A DNA stretch of 64,000 nt, from the NCBI GenBank assembly GCA_002030045.1, contig LQBI01000035.1, positions 88,807 to 152,806 of the forward strand, read 5' to 3'. A program made the translations under genes and the position numbers. Under the pieces are notes generated by a model. The model was given only the letters and a program-made list of their open reading frames with translations, was not told the DNA's origin and did not search any database. Shown here piece after piece: positions 32,676-47,065 of the stretch. Position 1 is the stretch's first letter, and each line of letters starts with the position of its first letter. This stretch comes from Candidatus Aegiribacteria sp. MLS_C. GTDB lineage: Bacteria > Fermentibacterota > Fermentibacteria > Fermentibacterales > JCC-6.

Positions 32676-33869
32676 TCAGCCCTTGACCACTCCCAGGGGA
32701 TGGAGCCTGACAGCAGGTTCCACCAGGTCGGTCTGCTCCTTCATGACCTCTTCGATGTCCTTGTACGCCGCAGGCGCCTCGCTGAGGTCCAGAACGGGAG
32801 CCCCCCTGCCGCGCCTGCCCCGTTCCGGGAACCTCTTCCACCCGCTGAAGACGATCCCTCTCATCGCTTCGTCACACTTCTTCGGGTTCAGCTTCCTTGA
32901 CGCCTCCTTCCTCCCCATGACGCGGCCGGCTCCGTGGGAGCAGCTCCTGAACGAGTCGGGGCTGCCCAGTCCCCTCACGATGTAGGAGCAAGTTCCCATG
33001 CTGCCGGGGATTATGCCCGTCTGGCCCTTCGCTGCCGAAGTGGCCCCCTTCCTGTGAACCCATACCATCCTGCCGAAATGCTCCTCCAGGGCGGCGTAGT
33101 TGTGATGGATGTCTATCCTTTCTTCGAAATCCTCTTCACCGGCTGTTTCCGCATAGATCTCCATCAGGGATGCCATGAGCCTCCGGCGGTTCTCCCTTGC
33201 GTAGTCCAGGGCGAATTCCATGTCCCGTATGTACTCCTCTCCCTCGACGCTGTTCACCGGAAGGTAGGAAAGCTCGTCGGTGGGAAGCTTCAGGGACCTT
33301 TTCCTGCAGTAGGTCACGGCTATGCGGTGGTGGTGGCCGGCGATCCTGTATCCCAGGTTTCGTGATCCGGAGTGTATCATGAGCCATACACGGCCGTCGT
33401 CACCCTCCTGCAGCTCCAGGAAGTGGTTGCCTCCCCCAAGTGTGCCAAGGCTCCTTCGGCACAGGTCCCGCCCCCTGGCGTCCATCCAGGATGGTATTCG
33501 GCCGAACTGGTCCCATTCCTGGTCCGACCTGTGGGAGTGACCCTCACCCGCCGGTATGCGCCTCGCGGCCTCGGCCACCACCTTCTTGACAAGGCCGCCT
33601 CCCGCCTTGCCGGCGGAAGTCCCGGTCCTGACCGCCACCATTCCGCATCCGATGTCGACGCCAACCGCGTAGGGTATCAAGGCTTCGGGACAGGCGATGA
33701 CCCCGCCTATGGGCATGCCGTATCCGGGATGGCAGTCGGCCATCACGGCCACGTGGTGGAAGGTCTGGCTGTGCACGGTGAGGTTCCCGGCCTGGACCGA
33801 GGCTGCCTTGTCCATGGACCTGCACCAGGAGTACAGGGGTATTCGGCCCCCGGTATCGATGATCCTCAA
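32676..33869 (-). CDS. rtcB: RNA-splicing ligase RtcB (short form)
   Basis: 397 aa. It joins RNA ends bearing 2',3'-cyclic phosphate or 3'-phosphate with 5'-OH using GTP and Mn. Seen are HHVAVMADCHPGYGMPIGGV, YAVGVDIGCGM (metal Cys), LGTLGGGNHFLE, MIHSGSRNLG and SCSHGAGR, whose His carries the guanylate. It begins with TTG at 33869 behind AGAGAGGCGGG, giving the expected start for the short RtcB type. No archease gene is adjacent. It is divergent from the M1 peptidase gene. Confidence 0.9.
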   Translation of the reverse strand: MRIIDTGGRIPLYSWCRSMDKAASVQAGNLTVHSQTFHHVAVMADCHPGYGMPIGGVIACPEALIPYAVGVDIGCGMVAVRTGTSAGKAGGGLVKKVVAEAARRIPAGEGHSHRSDQEWDQFGRIPSWMDARGRDLCRRSLGTLGGGNHFLELQEGDDGRVWLMIHSGSRNLGYRIAGHHHRIAVTYCRKRSLKLPTDELSYLPVNSVEGEEYIRDMEFALDYARENRRRLMASLMEIYAETAGEEDFEERIDIHHNYAALEEHFGRMVWVHRKGATSAAKGQTGIIPGSMGTCSYIVRGLGSPDSFRSCSHGAGRVMGRKEASRKLNPKKCDEAMRGIVFSGWKRFPERGRRGRGAPVLDLSEAPAAYKDIEEVMKEQTDLVEPAVRLHPLGVVKG

Positions 33870-33919: not shown

Positions 33920-33960
33920 GGAGATAATCGAAAAAACTCGTCGTGAAAAGGGCGGCGGAT

Positions 33961-36744
33961 ATGATATACCTACTGCTTACGGCGCTGGTCTGCGAAGCCG
34001 GGTTCCCGGGGCCCGAGAGCCGGGCCGACTACCGGATGGAAGCCAGGCTTGTCCCCGATTCCCAGATGGTCATCTGTACCTCGACCATACTGTTCACAAG
34101 CGGGGTGGACTACCCTGTGGACACCCTCTGGCTCCATCTCTACCCGAATGCATACCGTGATCCCTCCACCCCCTTCGGCCGCGACATGGAAGCGGCGGGA
34201 AGCTACGGCTTCAGAGCATCGGGCGCTGAGGAGAGGGGCTGGCTGGACCTCTTCGAATGGGAGCTGGACGGGGATCCCGTCACCGTGGAAGTGGACGACT
34301 GCCTGGGGTACATCGCACTGCGGAGGCCGCTTCCCCCGGGCGGCACCCTGACACTGAGCGGGGGGTTCGCTCTGAAGGTCCCGTTTTTCTGGAGCAGGCT
34401 GGGTCACTCGGGGGACACCTATCAGATAACCCAGTGGTACCCCAAGATGTGCGTCCTGGATCCCCGGGGATGGCATTCGGGCCGGTACCGCCGGCGAGGG
34501 GAGTTCTACAGCGATTTTGGTGATTACAGGGTGGAGATAACGGTACCCCGTGAATTCATCACCGCAGCCACCGGAAGGGTTGCGGGAACGGTCTTCTCCG
34601 AGGATTCGACCCTTCGTACGGATACCTGGCTGGCCCGGGATGTCCACGATTTCGTGTGGTCAGCAAGCCCCGACTACCACGTAAGGGAACACACCTTCCA
34701 TTACCCCGAGGATCTCGGCGGGGACGGCATATCGGTTCATCTCGTCCTGCTGGACGACGATCCCGGCCACTGGGAGGATGTACCCGCGGTCATTGACTCG
34801 ACCCTGCTCTACTACGGCCAGTGGTACTGTCCCTACCCCTACCCGGACCTCTGGGTGGTGGAGCCCGCACAGCTGACGGCAGGGGGCATGGAGTACCCGC
34901 AGTTCGTCTTCTCGGCCGCTGAGATACCGCTCACCAGGGCCCTGGAGATGGTCACGGCCCACGAGATCGGGCACCAGTGGTTCTACGGCATCCTGGCCAA
35001 CGACGAGGTGAACGAGGCCTGGCTGGACGAGGGCATGAACACCTTCAGCGAACTCCGCTACATGGAGCGCAGGCACGGATTCCACGGGAACATGACCACA
35101 ACGCCGGACTGGCTGCTCAGCGTAAGCGACCGGGAGCTTACGCTAACCGGATACGTCTCGGGGACCGCCGGCTTCGAGAAGATGCCGGTCCTCAGCGATG
35201 CCACCTCGGCAGGGGACGGGAGCCATCCAACCGGATTCACCTACTACTCCAAACCCGCACTCTTCGTCAGCATGCTGAGGGACCAGGCAGGCGAGGATGA
35301 GTTCGACCACGCCATGGACCTCTACTTCAGGAGGTTCATGTTCCATCACCCGCATACTGATGATTTCATGGAGGTACTTGAGCAGGTTACCGGCGAGTCC
35401 TGGGACCGTGAGTTCGACTACTGGCTCAGGGGGACCGGTAACGCCGACCTGGTGCTGGCAGACCTCCGCTGCTCCGAAGAATCCACCACGGTTGTCCTGT
35501 CCGGCGACCTGCCCCACTCCCTCGATCCTGAGCTGCTCCTGGTGGACGGAGAGGACTCACTGCTCTCCAGAGTTCACATGGAACCCGGAGAGACCGTATC
35601 CCTGACCGTCCCGGGAACATGGTCCCGGGCGGTGGCTGACCCGTTCTCCGAGTTTCCGGACCGCGCTCCATGGAACAACTCACTTCCACCGCTCTCACAG
35701 GTGCGCCCCCTTCTGCTGCCGGTACCCAGGCCCACCCACTACGGTCTCTGGCTCCTGCCCTTCCCCTCCTACGGTGCAGGTTCATGGCGGGGAGAACTGC
35801 TTCTCATGTCGACTCCTCTGCCTTCCTACATGGGCGGCCCGTACACCTTCACCGGCAGCGTATCCCTGCCCTTCAGCACGGGCAGCTGGTCCTCATGGGG
35901 TTCCTACGTACATTTCCCCCTTTTCAGGGGCCGGCACAGGGAACTCTTCGGTTCGGTCGGCCTGGAAAGGGGTTACGGGATCGGAAAGGCTTTCATCGGG
36001 GCCGAATACCGGTCAAGCGGCAGGGTGCCCTCGGACCCGTCTGTGGAGATCGGGCTTGGAATACGGCTCTTCAGCGTGGAGGACACCACCGTCTACGGAG
36101 GGAGGAACCTGGAGGAGGGACGGGGGGTGGAGGCGGCCGCAGGTCTTCAAGTCTCGGACGAGGGCTACCGTTTCTCCTGGAAGGGAGATCTCGAATTCCT
36201 CGGATCCCCTGGCTGGGAAGAGGGTCCCTACGGAACTGCGGAGGTCACCTTCGATCTGAGGACCAGGCTGTCCGGGGGCTGGTTCACAAGGAGCAGGCTG
36301 TACGCGGGAAGGGTTGCCGGGGATGCTCCCCGCCACGTTCTGCTGAGACCCGGGGGCGGTCTCTTCGCCGATGGCATTGTCGGAGCCTTCCTTCCGCCGG
36401 ACGGGACACTTTCCCCGCAGGAGCACTACTACGTGAGGAGCGGTCCAGCGCTTCCGGGATACCGGGAGAGTCACGTCCGTGGAAGGGCTGCGTTGACCGC
36501 CGAACAGAGGCTGGACCTGCCCGCTGTCCCTCTGGAGGTCTACTGGGCAGGGGGCTGGCTGGCCGACGGTTTCGAAGGTTTCAGTGGAGACTCCTTCATG
36601 TCGGAGCTGGGGGTCGCACTGAGGCTCGCCATGATGGAGGTCCTGTTCCCGCTCTGGGTCTCCGACCCGGGCGAAGGAGAGGAAGACTGGAACTTCAGAT
36701 GGAGGATAGGGCTTCATCCATCCGGGTTCCCCGATCTCTACTGA
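33961..36744 (+). CDS. Exported M1-family metallopeptidase with C-terminal beta-barrel-like domain
   Basis: 927 aa. The ATG at 33961 follows AAGGGCGG; a GTG 18 bases upstream has no ribosome-binding site. A signal peptide (MIYLLLTALVCEAG) is followed by an aminopeptidase-N-like beta domain. The zinc site is HEIGH (334-338) with Glu357 in NEAWLDEGMN, matching M1 peptidases. The exopeptidase GAMEN motif appears as TAGGMEYPQFVF. From about residue 600 to the end the sequence becomes Gly/Tyr/Trp-rich and strand-like (RELFGSVGLERGYGIGKAF, VEIGLGIRLFS), suggesting a membrane-anchoring beta-barrel, which is unusual for M1 enzymes. Confidence 0.85.
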   Translation: MIYLLLTALVCEAGFPGPESRADYRMEARLVPDSQMVICTSTILFTSGVDYPVDTLWLHLYPNAYRDPSTPFGRDMEAAGSYGFRASGAEERGWLDLFEWELDGDPVTVEVDDCLGYIALRRPLPPGGTLTLSGGFALKVPFFWSRLGHSGDTYQITQWYPKMCVLDPRGWHSGRYRRRGEFYSDFGDYRVEITVPREFITAATGRVAGTVFSEDSTLRTDTWLARDVHDFVWSASPDYHVREHTFHYPEDLGGDGISVHLVLLDDDPGHWEDVPAVIDSTLLYYGQWYCPYPYPDLWVVEPAQLTAGGMEYPQFVFSAAEIPLTRALEMVTAHEIGHQWFYGILANDEVNEAWLDEGMNTFSELRYMERRHGFHGNMTTTPDWLLSVSDRELTLTGYVSGTAGFEKMPVLSDATSAGDGSHPTGFTYYSKPALFVSMLRDQAGEDEFDHAMDLYFRRFMFHHPHTDDFMEVLEQVTGESWDREFDYWLRGTGNADLVLADLRCSEESTTVVLSGDLPHSLDPELLLVDGEDSLLSRVHMEPGETVSLTVPGTWSRAVADPFSEFPDRAPWNNSLPPLSQVRPLLLPVPRPTHYGLWLLPFPSYGAGSWRGELLLMSTPLPSYMGGPYTFTGSVSLPFSTGSWSSWGSYVHFPLFRGRHRELFGSVGLERGYGIGKAFIGAEYRSSGRVPSDPSVEIGLGIRLFSVEDTTVYGGRNLEEGRGVEAAAGLQVSDEGYRFSWKGDLEFLGSPGWEEGPYGTAEVTFDLRTRLSGGWFTRSRLYAGRVAGDAPRHVLLRPGGGLFADGIVGAFLPPDGTLSPQEHYYVRSGPALPGYRESHVRGRAALTAEQRLDLPAVPLEVYWAGGWLADGFEGFSGDSFMSELGVALRLAMMEVLFPLWVSDPGEGEEDWNFRWRIGLHPSGFPDLY

Positions 36745-36755
36745 GGGGAGGAATG

Positions 36756-37001
36756 ATGATACTGACCCTTGTGCTGATGACATGGGCCCTCCTGTTCACC
36801 GGATCCAGACCGGAAGGGGAGGGAACCGTGCGTCTACCGGCGGTGATCGAGCACATAATGGCACTTGCCGGCGATGAAAGGCCGTGGGCGAGGCCCATCG
36901 AGGCGGCGGACATGGAACTGATGGAGGAACTCGAAGAGTCCGGCTGGACGACGTTCCATGCCGCCGAGTGGTGGGTGAAGAAGGACGAAGATGAGCGGTA
37001 G
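36756..37001 (+). CDS. Small exported or membrane-anchored protein in the AmmeMemoRadiSam locus
   Basis: 81 aa. GGGGAGG precedes the double ATG; I use the second for spacing. Residues 1-15 are hydrophobic (MILTLVLMTWALLFTG). The rest is acidic with a Trp/aromatic tail: ALAGDERPWARPIEAADMEL, then ESGWTTFHAAEWWVKKDEDE. The stop lies 11 bases inside the following radical SAM gene, so the two are translationally coupled. No family is recognised. Its position and strict coupling suggest a partner or substrate of the radical SAM enzyme; this is inference. Confidence 0.65.
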   Translation: MILTLVLMTWALLFTGSRPEGEGTVRLPAVIEHIMALAGDERPWARPIEAADMELMEELEESGWTTFHAAEWWVKKDEDER

Positions 37002-37968
37002 GGTACAGTGCGTGCTCTGTCCACACATGTGCGTCCTCGACCCCGGGCAGCGCGGCCGGTGTACGGTAAGGCTCAACGTTGAAGGGGAGCTTGTGAGCCT
37101 GGTATACGGAAGACCGGTGGCGGTAAACGTCGACCCCGTGGAGAAGAAGCCCCTCTTCCATTTCCTTCCCGGCAGCGATGTGTTCTCCATCGCCACAGCA
37201 GGCTGCAACCTCAGGTGCCGGTTCTGCCAGAACTGGGAGATATCCCAGGCAGCCCCGGAGGATGTGGCACCCTACGACCTTCCCCCAGAAGCCGTGGTGG
37301 ACAGCGCATTGGAGTACGGGTGCAGGGCCATAGCGTATACCTACACCGAACCCATGGTCTGCATCGAGTACGTTCGGGACACCGCGGTCCTGGCCAGGGA
37401 ACGGGGACTGGCCAGCATACTGGTCACTGCGGGGTACGTGAACCCGGGACCTCTGATGGAGCTTGCGGAGTACGTGGACGCGGCAAACGTGGACCTCAAG
37501 TCCATATCCGACAGTTACTACAGGGATGTCTGCGGAGGGACGCTGGCCCCTGTGCTGGATACGCTGCGAATACTGAAGGATTCCGGGACCTGGGTGGAGG
37601 TCACCAACCTGGTGGTGCCGACCCTGAACGACGGGAAGGAGGAGCTGGAGGAACTGGCGGGATGGGTCCTGGACAATCTCGGGCCGGATACTCCGCTGCA
37701 CTTCTCAAGGTTCTTCCCCATGTACAGGCTCACGGACCTCCCCCCTACGCCCATAGAGACGCTGGCTGAAGCAAGGGAGACTGCTCTTGGGATGGGTCTT
37801 CATCATGTCTACGTTGGCAATGCCGTCACCACCGACGGTATGGTGACCCGCTGTCCGGCATGCGGAGCGGAGCTGGTGGTCAGGGAAGGCTACCTTGTGA
37901 CGAGGATGGACATTCAGGACAGCGCGTGCTCGCACTGCTCGGAACCTGTCGCGGGAATATGGGAATAA
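36991..37968 (+). CDS. AmmeMemoRadiSam system radical SAM enzyme (PflA-like)
   Basis: 325 aa. The radical SAM cluster is GCNLRCRFCQNWEIS (Cys72, 76, 79). The N-terminus carries four more Cys in the spacing CVLCPHMC...C (7, 10, 14, 24), a typical extension of this subfamily. SQAAPEDVAPYDLPPE, AYTYTEPMVCIEYVRD, NVDLKSISDSYYRDVCGGTL and FHVYVG-like end segments match the rSAM member of the AmmeMemoRadiSam set. A C-terminal zinc-ribbon-like part (RCPACGAEL...CSHC) is present. The system's reaction is unknown. The neighbours encode the Memo/AMMECR1 partners. Confidence 0.9.
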   Translation: MSGRVQCVLCPHMCVLDPGQRGRCTVRLNVEGELVSLVYGRPVAVNVDPVEKKPLFHFLPGSDVFSIATAGCNLRCRFCQNWEISQAAPEDVAPYDLPPEAVVDSALEYGCRAIAYTYTEPMVCIEYVRDTAVLARERGLASILVTAGYVNPGPLMELAEYVDAANVDLKSISDSYYRDVCGGTLAPVLDTLRILKDSGTWVEVTNLVVPTLNDGKEELEELAGWVLDNLGPDTPLHFSRFFPMYRLTDLPPTPIETLAEARETALGMGLHHVYVGNAVTTDGMVTRCPACGAELVVREGYLVTRMDIQDSACSHCSEPVAGIWE

Positions 37969-37982
37969 AGGGAGGACACCTT

Positions 37983-38153
37983 ATGGAAAGAATGGACAGA
38001 CGAGGCTTCCTTGCCAGGACCGTTCTGATCCTGCTATCCCTGGTGGCCGTCCGGACCGGGCCAACCGGTGAACGGTCGGCAGGCAGTTCAGGAATGGAGG
38101 TCGGAAGGACCTCGCGGAAGAGGGCCGATCACTGGAAGGAGCTGGCCGGATGA
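37983..38153 (+). CDS. 56-aa protein with a twin-arginine (Tat) signal
   Basis: Reads MERMDRRGFLARTVLILL and ends TSRKRADHWKELAG. RRGFLAR followed by a hydrophobic stretch (to about residue 24) is a Tat export signal. Only some 25 residues would remain after cleavage, with a basic, Trp-containing end. GGGAGG precedes the ATG, and the TGA overlaps the next ATG (ATGA), so it is a real coupled gene between the radical SAM enzyme and the Memo/AMMECR1 lipoprotein. Tat use implies folding or cofactor loading in the cytoplasm, possibly as a carrier for a partner. No family is recognised. Confidence 0.7.
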   Translation: MERMDRRGFLARTVLILLSLVAVRTGPTGERSAGSSGMEVGRTSRKRADHWKELAG

Positions 38154-39709
38154 GGATCACCCCTGTTCTGCTGGCCCTGCTGATGGCCTGCGGCGGCGGC
38201 TCACCCGCCCGGGATGTTCCTTCCGAGGGGATCTCTGACTCACCGCATGAAGCCCCATCGGGTTCAAGACCGCCGGCGACCGCCGCCGGTTCAAGACCGC
38301 CGGTTTACGCAGGAACCTTCTACCCGGCGGATCCCGGAGTACTGGCCTCCATGGTGGACAGCCTGCTTGACTCGGCATCCTCGTCACTGCGGGGAAGTCG
38401 CGCCGTGGCTGGTGTTGTCCCCCATGCGGGATACGTGTACAGCGGAGCCACCGCCGCCGATCTTTTCGGTTCCCTTCGGGGCATGGACATTGACGTGGTG
38501 GTCCTGGTGGGTCCCTCGCACAGGACTTCCTTCAACGGCTTCTCGGTCTTCCAGGGAACCTCCTGCCTGACTCCGCTGGGGGAGGTGCCGGTGGACACTG
38601 ATATGGCCGGGAGGCTCCTGGAGTCGCACCCGTCGGCAGCATTCACTCCCCGTGCCCATGAGGCCGAGCACTGCCTGGAGGTGCAGCTCCCCTTCCTCCA
38701 GCGGTCGCTGGATCCCGGTTTCAGAATAGTGCCTGTCCTGGTCGGCTCGGCGGACGCCGGTGAGCTGGAGTTCATGGCTGAACTCATACTTGCGGAGGCC
38801 TTCGAAAGGAGGGTTCTTGTCCTGGCCAGCTGCGACCTGTCACATTACCCTCCGCTTGAAATGGCGACGCGGGTCGATTCCGCCACTGTTTCAGCCATAC
38901 TTGCGGGCGACCCGGAAGGCTTCCTTTCCTCCACCTCCGAAGAATCGCTTCCGGAAGGAGTCGATACCTTCGCCTGCGGCCGGCTGCCGGTGGCGCTGGC
39001 GATGTACTACTCCAGGTTCTTCCCCGGAACGAGCGCGGAGGTCCTCTCGATGACCACAAGCGCGGAGTTCTCCGGGGATGATGAAAGGGTGGTCGGGTAC
39101 GCTTCCATCCTCTTCTTCTCCGAGGAGCCCGATCCCTCTGAGTGGATGGTCTCCGAAACCTCCTCCGACCTCCTGCTGGAGCTTGCCCGGGGCTCGGTGG
39201 AAGCTGCGGTGGCCGGCGGCGCCTTCGACCTTCCATCGGAACTCCCCGATGAACTGACCGTTCCCAGGGGAGCTTTCGTCACCCTGAAGAGCGGCGGTAT
39301 GCTCAGGGGATGCATCGGGTCCATCCGCCCATCGGGGCCGCTGGCGGAGACGGTGGTGCGAATGGCCCGCTCCGCCGCCCTGGAGGATCCCAGGTTCCCG
39401 CCAGTCTCACCTGCAGAGCTGGACGGCATTTCATTCGAGGTGTCGGTCCTGACACCGCTGCAGATGCTGGAGGACCCGGACCGGGTCAGGGTGGGTACCG
39501 ACGGTCTGCTGATCATCGGTCCCGGAGGCCGTTCGGGGGTGCTGCTTCCCCAGGTTCCCGTGGAACAGGGTTGGAACAGGGAGGATTTTCTCGAGGGAGT
39601 ATGCATCAAGGCGGGGCTTTCACCGAATGCGTACACCGGTGACGTCCTGCTCTACCGTTTCCAGGCGCAGGTGATCGATGAGTACGGGGAAGACCGGCGG
39701 CAGCGGTAG
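38150..39709 (+). CDS. Lipoprotein fusion of Memo-like (AmmeMemoRadiSam B) and AMMECR1 (AmmeMemoRadiSam A) domains
   Basis: 519 aa. It begins with a lipoprotein signal: MRITPVLLALLMACGGG, lipid-modified Cys14. After a Ser/Pro linker, residues about 50-325 are the Memo domain (GTFYPADP, GVVPHAGYVYSGATAA, VGPSHRTSF, EHCLEVQLPFLQ, LASCDLSHYP), with the His/Asp/Cys positions that form the metal site. Residues about 335-510 are AMMECR1 (RGAFVTLKSGGMLRGCIGSI, LEDPRFPPV, LPQVPVEQGW). Fusion of B and A occurs elsewhere. A lipid anchor, which puts both outside the cytoplasm, is striking because the radical SAM partner is cytosolic. Confidence 0.88.
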   Translation: MRITPVLLALLMACGGGSPARDVPSEGISDSPHEAPSGSRPPATAAGSRPPVYAGTFYPADPGVLASMVDSLLDSASSSLRGSRAVAGVVPHAGYVYSGATAADLFGSLRGMDIDVVVLVGPSHRTSFNGFSVFQGTSCLTPLGEVPVDTDMAGRLLESHPSAAFTPRAHEAEHCLEVQLPFLQRSLDPGFRIVPVLVGSADAGELEFMAELILAEAFERRVLVLASCDLSHYPPLEMATRVDSATVSAILAGDPEGFLSSTSEESLPEGVDTFACGRLPVALAMYYSRFFPGTSAEVLSMTTSAEFSGDDERVVGYASILFFSEEPDPSEWMVSETSSDLLLELARGSVEAAVAGGAFDLPSELPDELTVPRGAFVTLKSGGMLRGCIGSIRPSGPLAETVVRMARSAALEDPRFPPVSPAELDGISFEVSVLTPLQMLEDPDRVRVGTDGLLIIGPGGRSGVLLPQVPVEQGWNREDFLEGVCIKAGLSPNAYTGDVLLYRFQAQVIDEYGEDRRQR

Positions 39710-41735
39710 AGGAGGCGGGCTGGGGAGTTCTTCCTTCTTCCTTGGAGGGATGCTGTCCGTCCTCGTGCAGGCGGTGGTCCTCAGGGAATCACTCTTCGCA
39801 CGGCACCAGGCCGAGCTTGCTTCCGGTGTCGTACTCGCCTCCTGGATCGCGGGTTCAGGTCTCGGTGCTGTCATTGGAGGAAGGAGCCGTCACCGTCTCC
39901 TCCTCTGGAGGGCTGGTGTCCTTCTGATGCCGCTTCTGGGTGCCGCGCAGGTGCTATCTGCACGGACCGGATGGCTGCCGCTGCCCCTGACCGTGCTTCC
40001 CCTCGGCCTTCTGGCGGGGATGGTCTTCATACAGCCCTTCGCATTCGGCGATCCGGGAAGGGTATATGCCATGGAGGCCCTCGGTGCAGCGGCCGGAGGC
40101 GGGCTTTTCGTACTCCTGGCCCCATGGACGCTTTCCGGCGGAATGCTTGCGTTCTCTATCCTCGCGGCGGCTTTGGCTCTCGTCTCCAGCGGAAGGAAGT
40201 CAGCCGGACTCGTCCTGGGCGGACTGACCCTCCTCTCACTAGCCCTCGGGGTCCCCGGAGGTTTTGACCGTTTGCTGGCAAACATCTCCTTCGAAGGGTA
40301 CGAAAGCGTGGAAGTACTGCCGTCACCTTACGGGGAGGTGGCGGTGGCAGAGAGAAGCGGTCAGCACGCGGTCTTTCGCGGAGGCATCCTGGAATCCACC
40401 TGGCCGGCACGGGAATGGGCGGAAGCAGTTGTGGCGGTCCCTCTGGCGGCGTCCATGCCTGAAAGAGTGCTCTACATCGGGTCCTCCCCCGAGGAGTGCG
40501 GCTTACTTGAGGAATGGCCCGGTGTCGAGGACCTGTCATGCGTGGTCCCGGACGGGACACTCCTGGAAACGGCGGCCTATCCTACCGGAACGGAAACTGG
40601 GGACGGAAGGAGGTACGTCGACGGATGCGCAGGCGGGTTCGACCTCGTAGCTGTCTCCACCGGCCAGCCGCTCACCCTTCTGGCCAACCGTTTCTATACG
40701 GAGGAGTTCATGGAGACCGCGGTGGCTGCTCTGAATGATAGCGGCATGATGTCTCTCCGCCTTCCCGGCGGGGCCAACAGGCTCCATCCGCTGGAGGCGG
40801 ACCTGGCGCGTTCGGTACAGCTGGCGGCCGCGAAGCATTTCGACTGGGTCAGGGTCCTTCCGATGGCAGGCGTATCGATGCTCATGGGAAGGGGCACCGA
40901 GCCCGACCTTTCCGGGGAGGTCCTCGCCTCTTCTCTCGATTCCGCCGGTTACAGGGGCCTGTTCGTGAACTCCGGGACTCTTCCCTTCGATCTCTCCCCA
41001 ATGAGGGTATCGGCCCTTTCCGAACTGATATCCGCATCCCCGGCGGAGATGAACAGGGACCTGCATCCCGAGGGCTTCCTGCTGGCGCACCGATTATGGT
41101 CGGAGAGGACGGGCGGTCCACTCGAGAATTCGTGGATAGCACCGGCAGCGGCTGGGCTCCTTCTCATCATGGCCGCAGCCGCTGTTTTCACGCGGGATTT
41201 CCGTTCAGCCATGGGTGTCGCCTCCGCCGGGTTCTCCGGGCTCTCGGTGGAGGCCATCTCCCTTGTGGCGGTCCAGGCTTCCACCGGCTACTCCTGGGTC
41301 CTGGTTGGGGCGATCACAGGGCTGTTCATGACCGGAGCGGCTGCTGGAGCGCTGACCTCGTGGAAGTTCCGCCTGCCGGTCAGGCACTGGCTCCTGATCT
41401 CCACACTATCCGCATCCGCCTGCGCATGCTCGCTTGCAGCCTACGACGGATCGATCATAGATGGCAGGGTCCTTTCGATCATCATGCTGTCGGGTACGTT
41501 CCTGTGCGGATCCGCTTCGGGAGGTGCATTTTCCTCGGCCGCTGCAGGGCTCGCGGGGCACGGGACCTTCAGAATAGGGCTCCTGGGTCTTGCGGACTAC
41601 GGTTCCGGAGCGGCCGCGGCACTGCTGATGCCCCTGGTACTCTTCCCCCTGGCGGGAGCTGCCATTTCGCTCATTGCGGCGGCGGGATGGACCCTTGCCT
41701 GGTACGGGATGCAGTTCCTTCCCCGGGGCAAATGA
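39678..41735 (+). CDS. Polytopic membrane protein with degenerate spermidine-synthase-like middle domain
   Basis: 685 aa. N-terminal (about 20-200) and C-terminal (about 490-680) parts hold many hydrophobic segments; the middle (about 205-480) is soluble and follows the outline of SpeE-type Rossmann methyltransferase folds (YESVEVLPSPYGEVAVAERS, RVLYIGSSPEECGLLEEWPG, FDLVAVSTGQP, FYTEEFMETAVAALND). The glycine-rich cofactor loop (usually LxIGGGxGG) reads LYIGSSPEE, and the catalytic Asp after it is not evident, so polyamine synthesis is doubtful. It starts inside the Memo/AMMECR1 gene (32-base overlap), so it belongs to the same locus. Confidence 0.8.
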   Translation: MSTGKTGGSGRGGGLGSSSFFLGGMLSVLVQAVVLRESLFARHQAELASGVVLASWIAGSGLGAVIGGRSRHRLLLWRAGVLLMPLLGAAQVLSARTGWLPLPLTVLPLGLLAGMVFIQPFAFGDPGRVYAMEALGAAAGGGLFVLLAPWTLSGGMLAFSILAAALALVSSGRKSAGLVLGGLTLLSLALGVPGGFDRLLANISFEGYESVEVLPSPYGEVAVAERSGQHAVFRGGILESTWPAREWAEAVVAVPLAASMPERVLYIGSSPEECGLLEEWPGVEDLSCVVPDGTLLETAAYPTGTETGDGRRYVDGCAGGFDLVAVSTGQPLTLLANRFYTEEFMETAVAALNDSGMMSLRLPGGANRLHPLEADLARSVQLAAAKHFDWVRVLPMAGVSMLMGRGTEPDLSGEVLASSLDSAGYRGLFVNSGTLPFDLSPMRVSALSELISASPAEMNRDLHPEGFLLAHRLWSERTGGPLENSWIAPAAAGLLLIMAAAAVFTRDFRSAMGVASAGFSGLSVEAISLVAVQASTGYSWVLVGAITGLFMTGAAAGALTSWKFRLPVRHWLLISTLSASACACSLAAYDGSIIDGRVLSIIMLSGTFLCGSASGGAFSSAAAGLAGHGTFRIGLLGLADYGSGAAAALLMPLVLFPLAGAAISLIAAAGWTLAWYGMQFLPRGK

Positions 41736-41784: not shown

Positions 41785-43725
41785 CTACCTGTTGGAGAGG
41801 ACCACGAACTCGATCCTCCTGTTCATGGCCTTGTTGGCGGCGGAGGTGTTGGGGACCACGGGCTGGTTCTCGCCGTAGCCCACGGTGCTCAGCCTCCGTG
41901 CTTCGATGCCGCTGTTCACCAGGTAGTCGAAGACCGACTGTGCCCTCTGCTCGCTGAGGGTCTGGTTGTAGCTCTCGGCACCGTCGGAGTCGGTGTGGCC
42001 GGCGATCTGGACCTGAGCGTTGGGGTTTGCGCCCAGTATCTCAACGATCTCGTCCAGCACCTCGTAGGATTCGCGCTTGATGGTGGCGCTGTTGACATCG
42101 AAGTAGATGTTGTCGAAGGAGAGCACCTGTCCCTCCTCGATGGCGCAGGGTTCAAGCTGGAAGTCCACCACCATCTCCTGCATCCCGCTGATGCTGACGG
42201 TTTCGGTGGCGGGAAGGTAACCGTTGGCGCTTGCGGAGAGTATCCATTCGCCGTCGGCCACGAAGATGGAGTAGGTCCCGTCGGGACCGGAAGTTGCGGA
42301 TACGGCGTCAGAGTAGGTAACGGTGCCTATGATGGGAAGCCCGGTCTCCATGTCGGTGAAGGTACCCGTCACATTCTTGGCGGGATCCAAAGTGAAGTCG
42401 CGTACCATGTCCTGGCCGGCGACTACCTGAAGCGTGGCTGTGCGCTCCATGTAACCCGGCGCCGTGATGGATACGTCCAGGCTGCCCTCGGGGACCTCGG
42501 CGGCGTAGAAGCCGGTCCCGGGGTCGCAGATGGCCGCATCGGCCTCATCACCGGGGAATGCCACGGTGGCGCCCAACGGCTGACCGTCGAAGGAACTGCT
42601 GACGGTTCCTGTCATGAGGGCGTACCTGTCCTCCACAAGGTCGCTGGAGTACATCAGGTTCACACCCACACCCCAGGCGGGATAGTATCCCTCGGGGAAG
42701 GGGGCGAAGTTGGCCCTGTAGTCGTTGGTGGGTTCCATACCGGCCTGGTAGGCGTGATGGCCGAGATCGTTCCACTTGGGATCGAAGTTGTCGACGGAGA
42801 ATCCGCCCACCACGTCGCATGCGAAGCCGGAGCCCAGCTCGAACCTTACGCCGGGCTGAATGATGAGCAGATCATCATATCTCTCCTCGTTGCCGGCCTC
42901 GTAGTCCCGGTCGAGGAAGTGGCGCCATTCGGCTTCGGCGAAGAGTGTCCAGCCCTTCATCGGGTACTCGATGCCGGTGGCCAGGTGGAAGACGGGGTCT
43001 TCCACGTCCATGTCCACGGCAACCGTGTCACCGGTGCCGTACCTGTGGTCTGTGAACTGGAAGTTCTGCTTGAAGTAGTGGTAGCCGACGTTGGTGTGCC
43101 AGACCACCGGTTTCATGTCAAGGGACATGAGAAGATCGGCGCCGGCGGAGAAGTCGGTGCCTATCATGGGGCGGCGCATCTCGAACATGGGCTGGCCGGC
43201 CTGCCAGATGCCGTCGTACTCGTTGTTGTTGATCACGAAGGGACTGTTGCCGCCGTCATAGATGCTGAGGTTTACCCAGGGCATGAAGCCCAGCCAGAGG
43301 TTGCCCTCGCCGGGGTTCATGCCGTACTTGAGGTAGAGACCAGCCTCGCTGAAACCGTCGTCGTTCTCGTTCTCACCTCCGGAGAGGTCCTCGCGGCCCT
43401 CGATGGATTCCCTTGAGAGGCAGTTCCAGACGTAGGAGAGCCTTCCGGCTATCTCGAACTTATCTCCCAGTCCGAATGCGGTGGTGATGTACCATGTTCC
43501 GTCGTACTCGGTATCCGTGACGTCCACCGCCTCACCGCCTATCCATGCGGCCCTGGTGTCGTCGCTCATGCCGAGGAAGGAGAAAAGCGCTACCGAGAAC
43601 TCGCCGGCGCCTATGGGTTTGGAGTCAACCGTCCTGTTCAGGCCGCGGAGCCCGGTATAGGACGGAAGGGCCAGCGCCACTGCGCTGACCATGAGGAGAA
43701 CGGAAATTAACAACCCCTTCTTCAT
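41785..43725 (-). CDS. OmpA-family outer-membrane protein with carboxypeptidase-like repeats (paralogue 1)
   Basis: 646 aa. The ATG at 43725 has AAGGAA in front, then a signal peptide (MKKGLLISVLLMVSAVALA). Residues about 25-390 look like a beta-barrel (many YxxGxxF strands, long acidic loops). Two carboxypeptidase-regulatory-like beta-sandwich repeats follow (TVAFPGDEADAAICDPGTG, TFTDMETGLPIIGTVTYSD). The last 115 residues are an OmpA peptidoglycan-binding domain (LSFDNIYFDVNSATI, IAGHTDSDGAESYNQTLSEQ, RRIEFVV). It links the outer membrane to the cell wall. A second copy with the same order lies at 48086-50071. Confidence 0.9.
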   Translation of the reverse strand: MKKGLLISVLLMVSAVALALPSYTGLRGLNRTVDSKPIGAGEFSVALFSFLGMSDDTRAAWIGGEAVDVTDTEYDGTWYITTAFGLGDKFEIAGRLSYVWNCLSRESIEGREDLSGGENENDDGFSEAGLYLKYGMNPGEGNLWLGFMPWVNLSIYDGGNSPFVINNNEYDGIWQAGQPMFEMRRPMIGTDFSAGADLLMSLDMKPVVWHTNVGYHYFKQNFQFTDHRYGTGDTVAVDMDVEDPVFHLATGIEYPMKGWTLFAEAEWRHFLDRDYEAGNEERYDDLLIIQPGVRFELGSGFACDVVGGFSVDNFDPKWNDLGHHAYQAGMEPTNDYRANFAPFPEGYYPAWGVGVNLMYSSDLVEDRYALMTGTVSSSFDGQPLGATVAFPGDEADAAICDPGTGFYAAEVPEGSLDVSITAPGYMERTATLQVVAGQDMVRDFTLDPAKNVTGTFTDMETGLPIIGTVTYSDAVSATSGPDGTYSIFVADGEWILSASANGYLPATETVSISGMQEMVVDFQLEPCAIEEGQVLSFDNIYFDVNSATIKRESYEVLDEIVEILGANPNAQVQIAGHTDSDGAESYNQTLSEQRAQSVFDYLVNSGIEARRLSTVGYGENQPVVPNTSAANKAMNRRIEFVVLSNR

Positions 43726-43993
43726 ATCATTCCTTCTCAGTATGTTAACAAAAACCAACATTACAAACATGCGCAGATGAACACGGTATTGTCAACTGAT
43801 CAAAATCCAGTATAAAACCGTATGGGCATTTTAACATGGATATTCGGAGCGACATAATGAATCCGGGCCTTTCCGACGGTTAAAGGACAAAGAAGTGTCA
43901 GGATTCCGTCAGTGATTTGATTCGTGGACTTTCAAGCTTATATTGAACCATGTACCGGTGGCGTTCACGGTCAACCCACTCTGGAGTCGCAGC

Positions 43994-46900
43994 ATGTCGC
44001 AGGATTTCGCGTCGTTCCTGAAGAAGAGGCTGGTGCAGCATACGCTGCCCGAAGACCATCACGGGCCCGGCAGTAGCGAACTCAAGCCGGGAGAGAGAAG
44101 GGACATCGCAGTCCTATTCCTGGACCTGGGCGGCTTCACCGCCCTTTCGGAAAGACTCGACCATGAAGCCGTCCACGATATCTCGAAGGGCGTAATGGAC
44201 GCCCTGGTCGATATAAGCGGGAACTTCGGCGGCTACGTGGACAAGATAGAGGGCGACAGGATAATGGTCCTCTTCGGCGCCACCAGGGCGGGGGAGAACG
44301 ACAGCGAGAGAGCGGTATCCTGCGGTCTTCTCATGCTCGACGCGATAAGCACCGCGAACGACATACTCTCCGACACCGGAGTGCCCATCACCGCCAGAAT
44401 AGGTATCAACAGCGGCCCGGTAACTGTGGCCCCGGACGCGATCGGGCACCTGACCGCGATAGGCAGCACCGTTAACATAGCATCGAGGATGGAGGAGGCG
44501 GCCCAGGAGGGAACCGTCCTCCTGCCGGCCGCAGTCATGGAGAAGTGCAGGGACCTCTTCAGCTGGGTGGACCGGGGCGCCGTCAGCCTGAAGGGGGTGA
44601 GCCTGCCGGTACACGCCTTCAGTCCCGTGGAGAGGCTGACGGTAAGGCGTCATCGATGGGAGCGCTTCAGCGGTGACGGTTTTACCTCCTTCGTAGGACG
44701 GCGGCGGGAGCTGTCAGAGCTTTCGGGGCTTCTTGAGGAGCATATGAGTGAAGCCGCAGGAAAGGGAAGGCTGGGAACGATCCGCCACACGGTCCTTGAA
44801 GTGACCGGAGAGGCGGGCATAGGGAAATCCAGACTGGTGCACGAATTCATCGGCGACAGGTGCAGAGGTGCTCCGGGCATTCTTGTCCTCAGCGGTCAGA
44901 CGCAGTCCTACGCGCAGCCGGCGTACCAGCTCTGGGTCAGCATGCTCAGGGAGCTGCTCCGTTTTGATACGTCCTCCAGGCCGGGCTACCGGGAGTTCCG
45001 GGAGCGGGTCCTGGCCCTTTCCGGGGGTGATGAGACAACCGATTCAATACCCTTCCTGGCGGAACTCCTTTCAATCAGGTCAGGGGACAGGCGTCTGGAG
45101 GACCTGGACAGCGGCGCAATAGCACTGGAGACCAGGATAGCCTTCAGGAACCTGCTGAAGGCGATGGCTTCCGATCGCCATCTGATACTGGTTCTGGACG
45201 ACCTCCAGTGGATCGATTCCACCTGCCGCGGAGTGCTTGATTTCCTGCTGGCCAACTGTCCCTCTATCAATCCCCTGCTGGTCTTCCTGGTGAGCAGACC
45301 GGAGACCGATGACGGGAAACCCGTCAGATTCGATGTAAATCCGGGTTACGCGAGACTCGAGAGGATGGCTTTGTCGGCCATGGAGGGGGATGAGTGCCGG
45401 GGGATCATCGGAGCCCTTCTCGACAGGTTCGGAGGGGACGGACACCTGCCGGTCTCCCGCAGGGCGGAGGAGTTCCTGCTGGGGCATTCCCAGGGGAATC
45501 CCTTCTTCCTGGAGGAGCTGGTGCTGGATATGCTGGAATCCGGGCTGCTGGGGATACATGAGGGATCATGGACCTTCTCGAGTTCCCTGGACGACATCTA
45601 CGTCCCCCATTCACTGACGGGTCTCCTGCAGTCGAGACTGGACCGGCTTTCGGAGGAACACAGGGGAAGCCTGCAGAAATCATCCGTACTCGGGTTCGAG
45701 TTCAGGCTGATGCTCTACAGGCGTCTGCTGGAGAAGCTTGGACTCGAGGAAGACACGGATAATGTCTTCGGCGACCTTGAAAGACGCCAGTTCCTCCTGG
45801 GGAAGGAATCCGCCGGCGGCAGGATGTTCGAGTTCAGGAACATACTCATTCACGACACGGTCTACAGGACCGTTCTGGAGAGCAACCGCAAGCTCCTGCA
45901 CAGGCTGACGGCCCTTATTCTCGAAGATGGGCTGGAGGAGGACGACAGGGAGATGGCCGATATCCTCGCCCACCACTGGGAACTGGCTGGCGACAGGGAG
46001 AAGGCCCTCCACTGGGGCGTGCTGAGCCTCAGGAAGGCTGTGACCACCTACCAGCACGAAAGGGCGATGGCTCTCTCCGCAGGACTGGAGGAGCTTATCC
46101 GCCTGAAGCCCCTGGAGGGCGGGAACCTGGAGAGGCTCATGGAAGTTCTGCTCAGCAGGTATACCACTCTGGACATGCTTGGCCGCAGGAGGGATCAGGA
46201 GGAACTGCTCCTCTCGATGAAGGAGCTTGCAGAGTCGCATTCCCTGGAGGAATGGCAGTTGAGGATATGGACAAGCCTCGGAAACGTCCTGAGGATAACC
46301 GGAAGGCTCCAGGAGGCCGAGGACAGCTACAGGAAGGCGCTGGCACTGGCAGTTGAGAGGTCGGACCGCCGGAGTCGGGGCAAGGTTCTCTGCAACCTGG
46401 GCATACTCAGCAGGATAAAGGGGGACCTGGAGGAGTCTGAGTGTCTCTTTAAACAGGCCCTGGAGATGAACGGCACCGAGGTCGACCCCAGGGTGGAGGG
46501 AGTGCTGATGGGCAACCTGGGCAACCTGTACTACGACCAGGGTCACATGGATGAGGCAATCGAGTACTACGAGAGGGCTCTGGCGATGAACAGGGAGGTG
46601 GGGGACAGGCGGAGCGAGGGAATAGCATTGGGCAACCTGGGAAATCCCTACAAGGCCAGGGGCGACCTGAATAAAGCCCTGTCCTACTACAGGCAGTCCC
46701 TCGACCTGCACAGGGAGATAGGGAACAGGAGGAGCGAAGGGGTGACCCTCTCCAACCTCGGAGCTCTCTACTATGACCACGGCCGCTTTCAGGAGTCAGG
46801 CGAATGCAGCGACCTTGCACTGGAGATACACAGGGAGACCGGCAACATGATGCTGGAGGCAGTTACGCTCACATGTCTCGCGTTGCTCCGCGTCCGCTCA

Positions 46901-47065
46901 GAGGACATCGAGGGGGCAATGACGCACTATAAGAGGATAGTGGAGCTGGTGGACGAACTGGGTCTGACGGAAGGAGGGTTCGATCATTTCCGTGAACTGC
47001 GCCGCCGTCTCCTTGAACAGGGACTCACTGAAGAAGACGTGCCGCTTCCGAAGGAATGGGAGTAG
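43994..47065 (+). CDS. Class III adenylate cyclase + P-loop ATPase + TPR regulator-like protein
   Basis: 1023 aa. The ATG at 43994 follows GGAG; an in-frame TTG 51 bases upstream is less likely. The cyclase domain (about 35-215) has a full catalytic set: Asp44 in LFLDLGGFTALSERL, Lys84 and Asp88 in YVDKIEGDRIMVLFGA, Asn161 and Arg165 in GSTVNIASRME. The Lys predicts ATP as substrate. A P-loop lies near 271 (GEAGIGKSRL), Walker B near 400 (LILVLDDLQWID). The region about 740-1000 holds TPR repeats with the recurring pattern GxxLGNLGNLYxxxG. There is no membrane segment. Unlike the 15989-19918 protein it has only one cyclase domain. Confidence 0.9.
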   Translation: MSQDFASFLKKRLVQHTLPEDHHGPGSSELKPGERRDIAVLFLDLGGFTALSERLDHEAVHDISKGVMDALVDISGNFGGYVDKIEGDRIMVLFGATRAGENDSERAVSCGLLMLDAISTANDILSDTGVPITARIGINSGPVTVAPDAIGHLTAIGSTVNIASRMEEAAQEGTVLLPAAVMEKCRDLFSWVDRGAVSLKGVSLPVHAFSPVERLTVRRHRWERFSGDGFTSFVGRRRELSELSGLLEEHMSEAAGKGRLGTIRHTVLEVTGEAGIGKSRLVHEFIGDRCRGAPGILVLSGQTQSYAQPAYQLWVSMLRELLRFDTSSRPGYREFRERVLALSGGDETTDSIPFLAELLSIRSGDRRLEDLDSGAIALETRIAFRNLLKAMASDRHLILVLDDLQWIDSTCRGVLDFLLANCPSINPLLVFLVSRPETDDGKPVRFDVNPGYARLERMALSAMEGDECRGIIGALLDRFGGDGHLPVSRRAEEFLLGHSQGNPFFLEELVLDMLESGLLGIHEGSWTFSSSLDDIYVPHSLTGLLQSRLDRLSEEHRGSLQKSSVLGFEFRLMLYRRLLEKLGLEEDTDNVFGDLERRQFLLGKESAGGRMFEFRNILIHDTVYRTVLESNRKLLHRLTALILEDGLEEDDREMADILAHHWELAGDREKALHWGVLSLRKAVTTYQHERAMALSAGLEELIRLKPLEGGNLERLMEVLLSRYTTLDMLGRRRDQEELLLSMKELAESHSLEEWQLRIWTSLGNVLRITGRLQEAEDSYRKALALAVERSDRRSRGKVLCNLGILSRIKGDLEESECLFKQALEMNGTEVDPRVEGVLMGNLGNLYYDQGHMDEAIEYYERALAMNREVGDRRSEGIALGNLGNPYKARGDLNKALSYYRQSLDLHREIGNRRSEGVTLSNLGALYYDHGRFQESGECSDLALEIHRETGNMMLEAVTLTCLALLRVRSEDIEGAMTHYKRIVELVDELGLTEGGFDHFRELRRRLLEQGLTEEDVPLPKEWE

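Follow-up and report, generated by a model that had tools for sequence, protein, structure and literature searches.

Since their chemistry depends on SAM, a [4Fe-4S] cluster, and a strong reductant, radical SAM enzymes are regarded as cytoplasmic. In Candidatus Aegiribacteria sp. MLS_C (Fermentibacterota; hereafter MLS_C), the gene for the radical SAM (rSAM) enzyme of an AmmeMemoRadiSam system lies between genes for two tiny, exported-looking proteins and is followed by genes for a Memo–AMMECR1 lipoprotein and a polytopic membrane protein. This arrangement raises the question of the side of the membrane on which the enzyme works, and of what the two small proteins, called S1 and S2 here, do for it.

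Organization and conservation of the locus

The window analyzed is a stretch of 64,000 nt of MLS_C DNA, and coordinates are positions within it. The MLS_C genes were assigned to families with NCBIfam and Pfam profiles. The features of the module are as follows.

36756–37001, + strand: S1, 81 aa (an alternative ATG at 36753 is possible)
36991–37968, + strand: AmmeMemoRadiSam rSAM enzyme (TIGR04337, 386 bits; cut-off 220)
37204–37227, + strand: CX3CX2C motif of the rSAM enzyme
37983–38153, + strand: S2, 56 aa, with a Tat-type leader, a linker, and a C-terminal tail
38150–39709, + strand: Memo–AMMECR1 fusion (TIGR04336, 249.5 bits; TIGR04335, 164.9 bits; both above cut-off)
38189–38191, + strand: codon of the lipid-anchor Cys in the lipobox of Memo–AMMECR1
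39678–41735, + strand: polytopic membrane protein, assigned from weak sequence matches, an AF2 model, and structural neighbors

Coordinates and family profiles confirm the five genes and their positions as given in a preliminary description of the locus, which had also noted that all junctions but one overlap. The overlaps are 11 nt (S1/rSAM), 4 nt (S2/Memo–AMMECR1), and 32 nt (Memo–AMMECR1/polytopic protein), and the sole gap is one of 14 nt between rSAM and S2. The order S1–rSAM–S2–Memo–AMMECR1–polytopic protein recurs in most congeners and, at lower identity, in neighboring genera of the order, as would be expected of the single functional unit that the preliminary description had proposed and for which it had suggested a search of related genomes. 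An M1-family peptidase gene (33943–36744, +; PF01433, 73.6 bits; signal-like N-terminus) ends a few nucleotides 5′ of S1. It precedes the module in most congeners, is unmatched in the other genera, and was left out of the module. Judged by eye, the other flanking genes encode an RtcB RNA ligase family-like protein with a TTG start (32676–33869, −), a large protein resembling those of the outer membrane, its C-terminus of OmpA type and its gene convergent with the module (41785–43770, −), and a long protein resembling nucleotide-cyclase/ATPase/TPR regulators (43943–47065, +).

The Memo–AMMECR1 fusion begins MRITPVLLALLMAC|GGG and carries a lipoprotein signal. In every Fermentibacterota member that has a Memo, this protein was called a lipoprotein, the criterion being a conserved lipobox whose Cys follows a brief hydrophobic stretch; of the 58 loci with a Memo, 53 retain a lipobox or Sec signal on it. 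The earlier proposal that both domains are anchored outside the cytoplasm is thus supported; non-conservation of the lipoprotein signal in relatives would have spoken against the preliminary description. Because the gene order recurs and this signal is kept, the MLS_C layout is not a chance arrangement. Outside Fermentibacterota, a Memo lies near 50/99 exported versus 2/70 cytosolic rSAM genes, and almost every Memo near exported rSAM whose N-terminus could be read has a lipobox or signal. In locus L047 (4173–5867, −), the gene for a lipoprotein that weakly matches peptidases M3/M32 (36.1 bits versus 27 for PF01432) stands between those for a Tat-rSAM and a Memo–AMMECR1 lipoprotein. The MLS_C genome also has a second Memo (a 279-aa frame, MIRRPAVAGMFYPAG) with no signal and a second, leaderless rSAM (L058), so that it holds a set of the cytosolic type alongside the exported-type one.

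The missing first strand and its fused form in relatives

The MLS_C enzyme lacks the first nine positions of its family profile. The TIGR04337 match begins at position 10, and the protein begins MSGRVQCVLCP, where ordinary AmmeMemoRadiSam enzymes open with a brief stretch like MKEAMFYEKLEDGKVRCxLCP, which corresponds to the profile from position 1 onward. A single chain including positions 1–9 is the usual form, although the curated cut-off does not demand it; in MLS_C, the corresponding segment sits on S2 and, more weakly, on S1.

In relatives from many phyla, a leader, the strand, and the enzyme are fused in one protein, and most of the 80 nearest rSAM sequences in named genomes carry an in-frame leader, either Tat (SRRxFLK) or Sec/membrane. 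In L121, one of the fused relatives, the TIGR04337 match runs from position 1, within its ARFY segment, which the AF2 model places in a hairpin (pLDDT ~98) after an N-terminal helix and a disordered linker. On a tree of rSAM sequences, the exported forms fall into one large group, with the second MLS_C enzyme outside it. Two leaderless enzymes, L079 and L093 (Nanoarchaeota, Woesearchaeota MAG), lie at or near the base of this group. A sample drawn outside Fermentibacterota by family search, blind to leaders, comprised 24 exported, 60 cytosolic, and 10 unclear loci; leaders were judged by motif and hydropathy rather than by a trained signal predictor, and most of the sequences are from MAGs.

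It could be argued that the fused leaders, like S1 and S2, merely hold the enzyme on the cytoplasmic side of the membrane. Such an arrangement would avoid having to supply SAM, iron-sulfur clusters, and electrons outside, and several leaders do lack a clear cleavage site. Against it stand the Tat motifs and, in 61 of 67 fused leaders, flanking charges that fit an N-in/C-out topology. Moreover, in nine loci a CxxCH c-heme motif, of use solely outside the cytoplasm, is inserted between leader and rSAM. Memo proteins near exported rSAM, too, have a lipobox or signal. Taken together, these features make the tether unlikely.

A copy of the strand on S2 and, in relatives, on S1

S2 carries the Tat-type motif MDRRGFLA (DRRGFL at 37995–38012, +). 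An alignment of S2 proteins has an invariant R, RR/RK-x-F in nearly all members, and a hydrophobic segment thereafter, in keeping with a Tat motif, and TatC is encoded in the MLS_C genome. The curated Tat profile does not match MLS_C S2 and gives the S2 of L081 16.3 against a cut-off of 16.7; among fused relatives, L121 lies exactly at the cut-off of 16.7, and another score was 21.7 against 22.7. Assignment of S2 to the formate-dehydrogenase Tat family TIGR02811 was rejected, as one homologue reached just 21 versus 48 bits.

The C-terminal tail of S2, RADHWKELAG (38121–38150, +), resembles the N-terminal strand of rSAM family members. Joined to the MLS_C enzyme, it adds 7.2 bits to the family score, versus 1.5 for a shuffled tail, and it matches a profile of rSAM N-termini with p=0.0012 against shuffles of itself. 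In 16 of 16 cases from Fermentibacterota and other phyla, S2 tails match this profile, each at p<=0.006 by shuffling of the tail; a combined p would have no literal meaning, given that these tails share ancestry and that a tail pattern served to find some of them. The tails frequently end in LAG and have conserved aromatic residues, the usual form being ..A-x-Y-Y-x-x-LAG. Variant S2-like proteins that end in ..RPGKWAG or ..DWAG follow rSAM in L080, L097, L113, and L132.

S1 has a hydrophobic signal or anchor at its N-terminus and a C-terminal tail (36957–36998; HAAEWWVKKDEDER) that occupies the position of the enzyme's first strand. In MLS_C, the resemblance of this tail to the rSAM N-terminus profile is weak (p=0.026, shuffles of the tail), and by family score the tail joined to the enzyme does no better than a shuffled one. 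In other phyla (L033, L081, L083, L091, L140), S1-type proteins clearly carry a copy of the strand after a membrane leader. A programmed frameshift joining S1 to rSAM was considered and is unlikely because, outside the phylum, S1 often stops 5′ of rSAM with no overlap. In two Omnitrophota loci (L082, L083), a NosR-like FMN/4Fe-4S membrane protein encoded directly ahead of rSAM ends, beyond an extra hydrophobic stretch, in an S1-type tail, an arrangement that links this tail to the docking of an electron donor onto the enzyme.

The split and fused forms exclude each other. By one fixed rule, an S2-like open reading frame follows rSAM in 15/17 Fermentibacterota loci and 10/17 other leaderless loci (25/34 together), versus 0/80 fused loci, 0/69 cytosolic loci, and 2/3062 background windows; visual inspection adds a small number of further leaderless loci with S2 variants. 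On the rSAM tree, the difference between split and fused amounts to one or two transitions, and the exclusion is therefore not statistically independent; a tree-based test, with one or two independent contrasts, had no power. In these sequences the exclusion is a conserved correlated trait, not a repeated natural experiment.

These observations bear on the proposal of the preliminary description, that the rSAM enzyme stays in the cytoplasm and modifies S1 or S2, which is then exported to act with the Memo–AMMECR1 lipoprotein. S1 and S2 are indeed small and exported-looking and adjoin the enzyme; the S2 tails often have LAG endings and conserved aromatics; and the nearest solved fold to the enzyme is that of pyruvate formate-lyase activase, which modifies a protein. 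But the tails of S2, and of S1 in relatives, resemble the strand that the enzyme itself is missing, and in L082 and L083 the S1-type tail terminates a large electron-transfer membrane protein. Fused relatives, nine of them with CxxCH, hold leader and strand on the enzyme and do without a separate small protein. Homologous loci that lack the small genes, which the preliminary description had said would count against it, thus do occur, the genes being absent because the leader there is fused to the enzyme. Nor do the loci resemble those of a RiPP-like rSAM with a peptide substrate, which would have an independent small precursor wherever the enzyme occurs, as S2 tails copy the enzyme strand and fused loci lack the small genes. 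Modification of S1 or S2 inside the cell therefore seems distinctly unlikely.

Probable activity and redox neighborhood of the enzyme

The CX3CX2C cysteines and many further residues are invariant across the exported rSAM set, and the fold model of the exported-type enzyme is intact; the conserved residues point to a probably active enzyme and to no more than that. Exported rSAM has a NosR-like membrane protein (FMN_bind plus Fer4_5) encoded beside it in L080, L081, L082, L083, L084, L096, L098, L108, and L165, versus a single weak match in cytosolic loci. The NosR-like protein is fused to DsbD_2 in L096, L098, and L108 and to the spermidine-synthase-like protein in L080. Clustering of neighbors places DsbD_2 near 14/102 exported and 0/60 cytosolic rSAM genes and DUF362 near 12/102 and 0/60, respectively. 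DUF362 genes lie just 5′ of Tat-rSAM in L095 (3878–4774) and L137 (3775–4758), and the protein has its own Tat motif in some loci. The MLS_C locus itself encodes no electron conduit. That the exported proteins are structural or metal-binding relatives that have lost radical SAM activity would accord with the lack of precedent, in the literature searched, for an active rSAM outside the cytoplasm, but it is very unlikely given the invariant residues, the intact fold model, and the enrichment of redox membrane proteins nearby.

The polytopic protein

The AF2 model of the polytopic protein (mean pLDDT 92.5) has helices at 17–204 and 484–678 around a domain at ~192–480. Its Foldseek neighbors are aminopropyltransferases for the inserted domain and MFS transporters for the helices, and the protein thus models as MFS-like transporter helices with an inserted spermidine-synthase/aminopropyltransferase-like domain. 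Although it shares both folds with these known proteins, it differs from them in its fused architecture and, in MLS_C, in an altered glycine-rich loop. Outside Fermentibacterota, it is found near 45/99 exported versus 0/70 cytosolic rSAM genes, and in the leader-blind sample near 11/24 versus 0/60 (p 1.3e-7); the profile used was built from same-locus matches, which touches the cytosolic zero only through sensitivity. Relatives of the protein match PF01564 at ~100 bits. In Fermentibacterota, the glycine-rich (SAM-binding) loop and one acidic residue are altered, so that export of SAM by this protein is a guess, and weakest in the MLS_C lineage.

Discussion

We judge it reasonably probable that the MLS_C locus encodes an extracytoplasmic AmmeMemoRadiSam whose leader and first strand have been split into S1 and S2, which act in trans. 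The module as a whole most likely works outside the cytoplasm, with S1 and S2 docking or escorting the enzyme.

We infer a mechanism along the following lines. Enzymes of this branch usually start with a Tat or Sec/membrane leader, followed by a flexible linker and the first β-strand. In the MLS_C lineage, this leader-plus-strand would have become two separate proteins flanking a leaderless enzyme, S1 upstream with a membrane leader and S2 downstream with a Tat leader, whose tails could complete the N-terminal hairpin of the enzyme in trans. S2 would be the Tat carrier, the folded iron-sulfur enzyme passing the Tat pore as its hitchhiker, and S1 an anchor that helps to keep the enzyme at the outer membrane face, where it would act with the lipid-anchored Memo–AMMECR1. 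In relatives, electrons might come through membrane conduits (DsbD_2 or the FMN-binding/4Fe-4S NosR-like proteins) or a c-type heme within the enzyme, and the transporter-like protein with the aminopropyltransferase domain may provide SAM or a relative of SAM.

Several considerations count against export. First, we know of no radical SAM enzyme that works outside the cytoplasm. Second, SAM and strong reductants are scarce there. Third, Sec-type leaders export unfolded protein, which is hard to reconcile with iron-sulfur insertion.

The system has partial parallels among known ones. As in AmmeMemoRadiSam generally, all three MLS_C domains score above the curated cut-offs (TIGR04335, TIGR04336, TIGR04337), CX3CX2C is invariant, and Memo and AMMECR1 form one chain. 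Ordinary AmmeMemoRadiSam enzymes, however, are cytosolic, in one piece, and mostly apart from Memo (clustered in 2/70 loci), whereas MLS_C has split-off leader pieces, a lipid-anchored Memo–AMMECR1, and an extra polytopic partner. Among solved proteins, the nearest to the MLS_C enzyme in sequence as well as fold is pyruvate formate-lyase activating enzyme (3cb8, 3c8f), but with ~17% identity; the MLS_C enzyme has an extra N-terminal Cys motif and a C-terminal CxxC region and belongs to a different family. In Tat hitchhiker complexes, such as those of NiFe hydrogenase and formate dehydrogenase (PMC10924467), a partner with a Tat signal carries a cofactor-bearing subunit that has none, as S2 would by analogy; but the proposed carrier here has 56 residues, its mature part barely more than one strand of the cargo, and the MLS_C case is known from sequence. 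The FMN_bind and Fer4_5 proteins of relatives, some fused to DsbD_2, resemble flavinylated NapH-like and DsbD-type conduits (Meheust et al. 2021, PMC8238504), of which the MLS_C locus itself has none; the text of that paper mentions neither radical SAM nor AMMECR1.

More broadly, we are inclined to think that an AmmeMemoRadiSam branch in many bacterial phyla is extracytoplasmic, with radical SAM chemistry outside the membrane, electrons delivered through dedicated transmembrane conduits, SAM perhaps supplied by a transporter with an aminopropyltransferase domain, and, in some lineages, two tiny proteins donating the export leader in trans. This branch is widespread and apparently undescribed. 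Our text searches, largely confined to papers outside subscription, returned no report of an exported or periplasmic radical SAM enzyme and turned up very little about AmmeMemoRadiSam. The Memo–AMMECR1 system was reportedly described in a 2019 paper on a dioxygenase superfamily. Memo and AMMECR1 both occur in humans. A description of the system is cited in PMC7159879.

The finding has several implications. First, an exported rSAM branch accompanied by redox conduits and a transporter-like protein would raise the question of how SAM radical chemistry could run outside the membrane. Second, the search for the role of Memo and AMMECR1 is narrowed, since for the exported branch a substrate located in the envelope is to be expected. 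Finally, if the split leaders S1 and S2 do bind the enzyme in trans, they would constitute a very small Tat escort.
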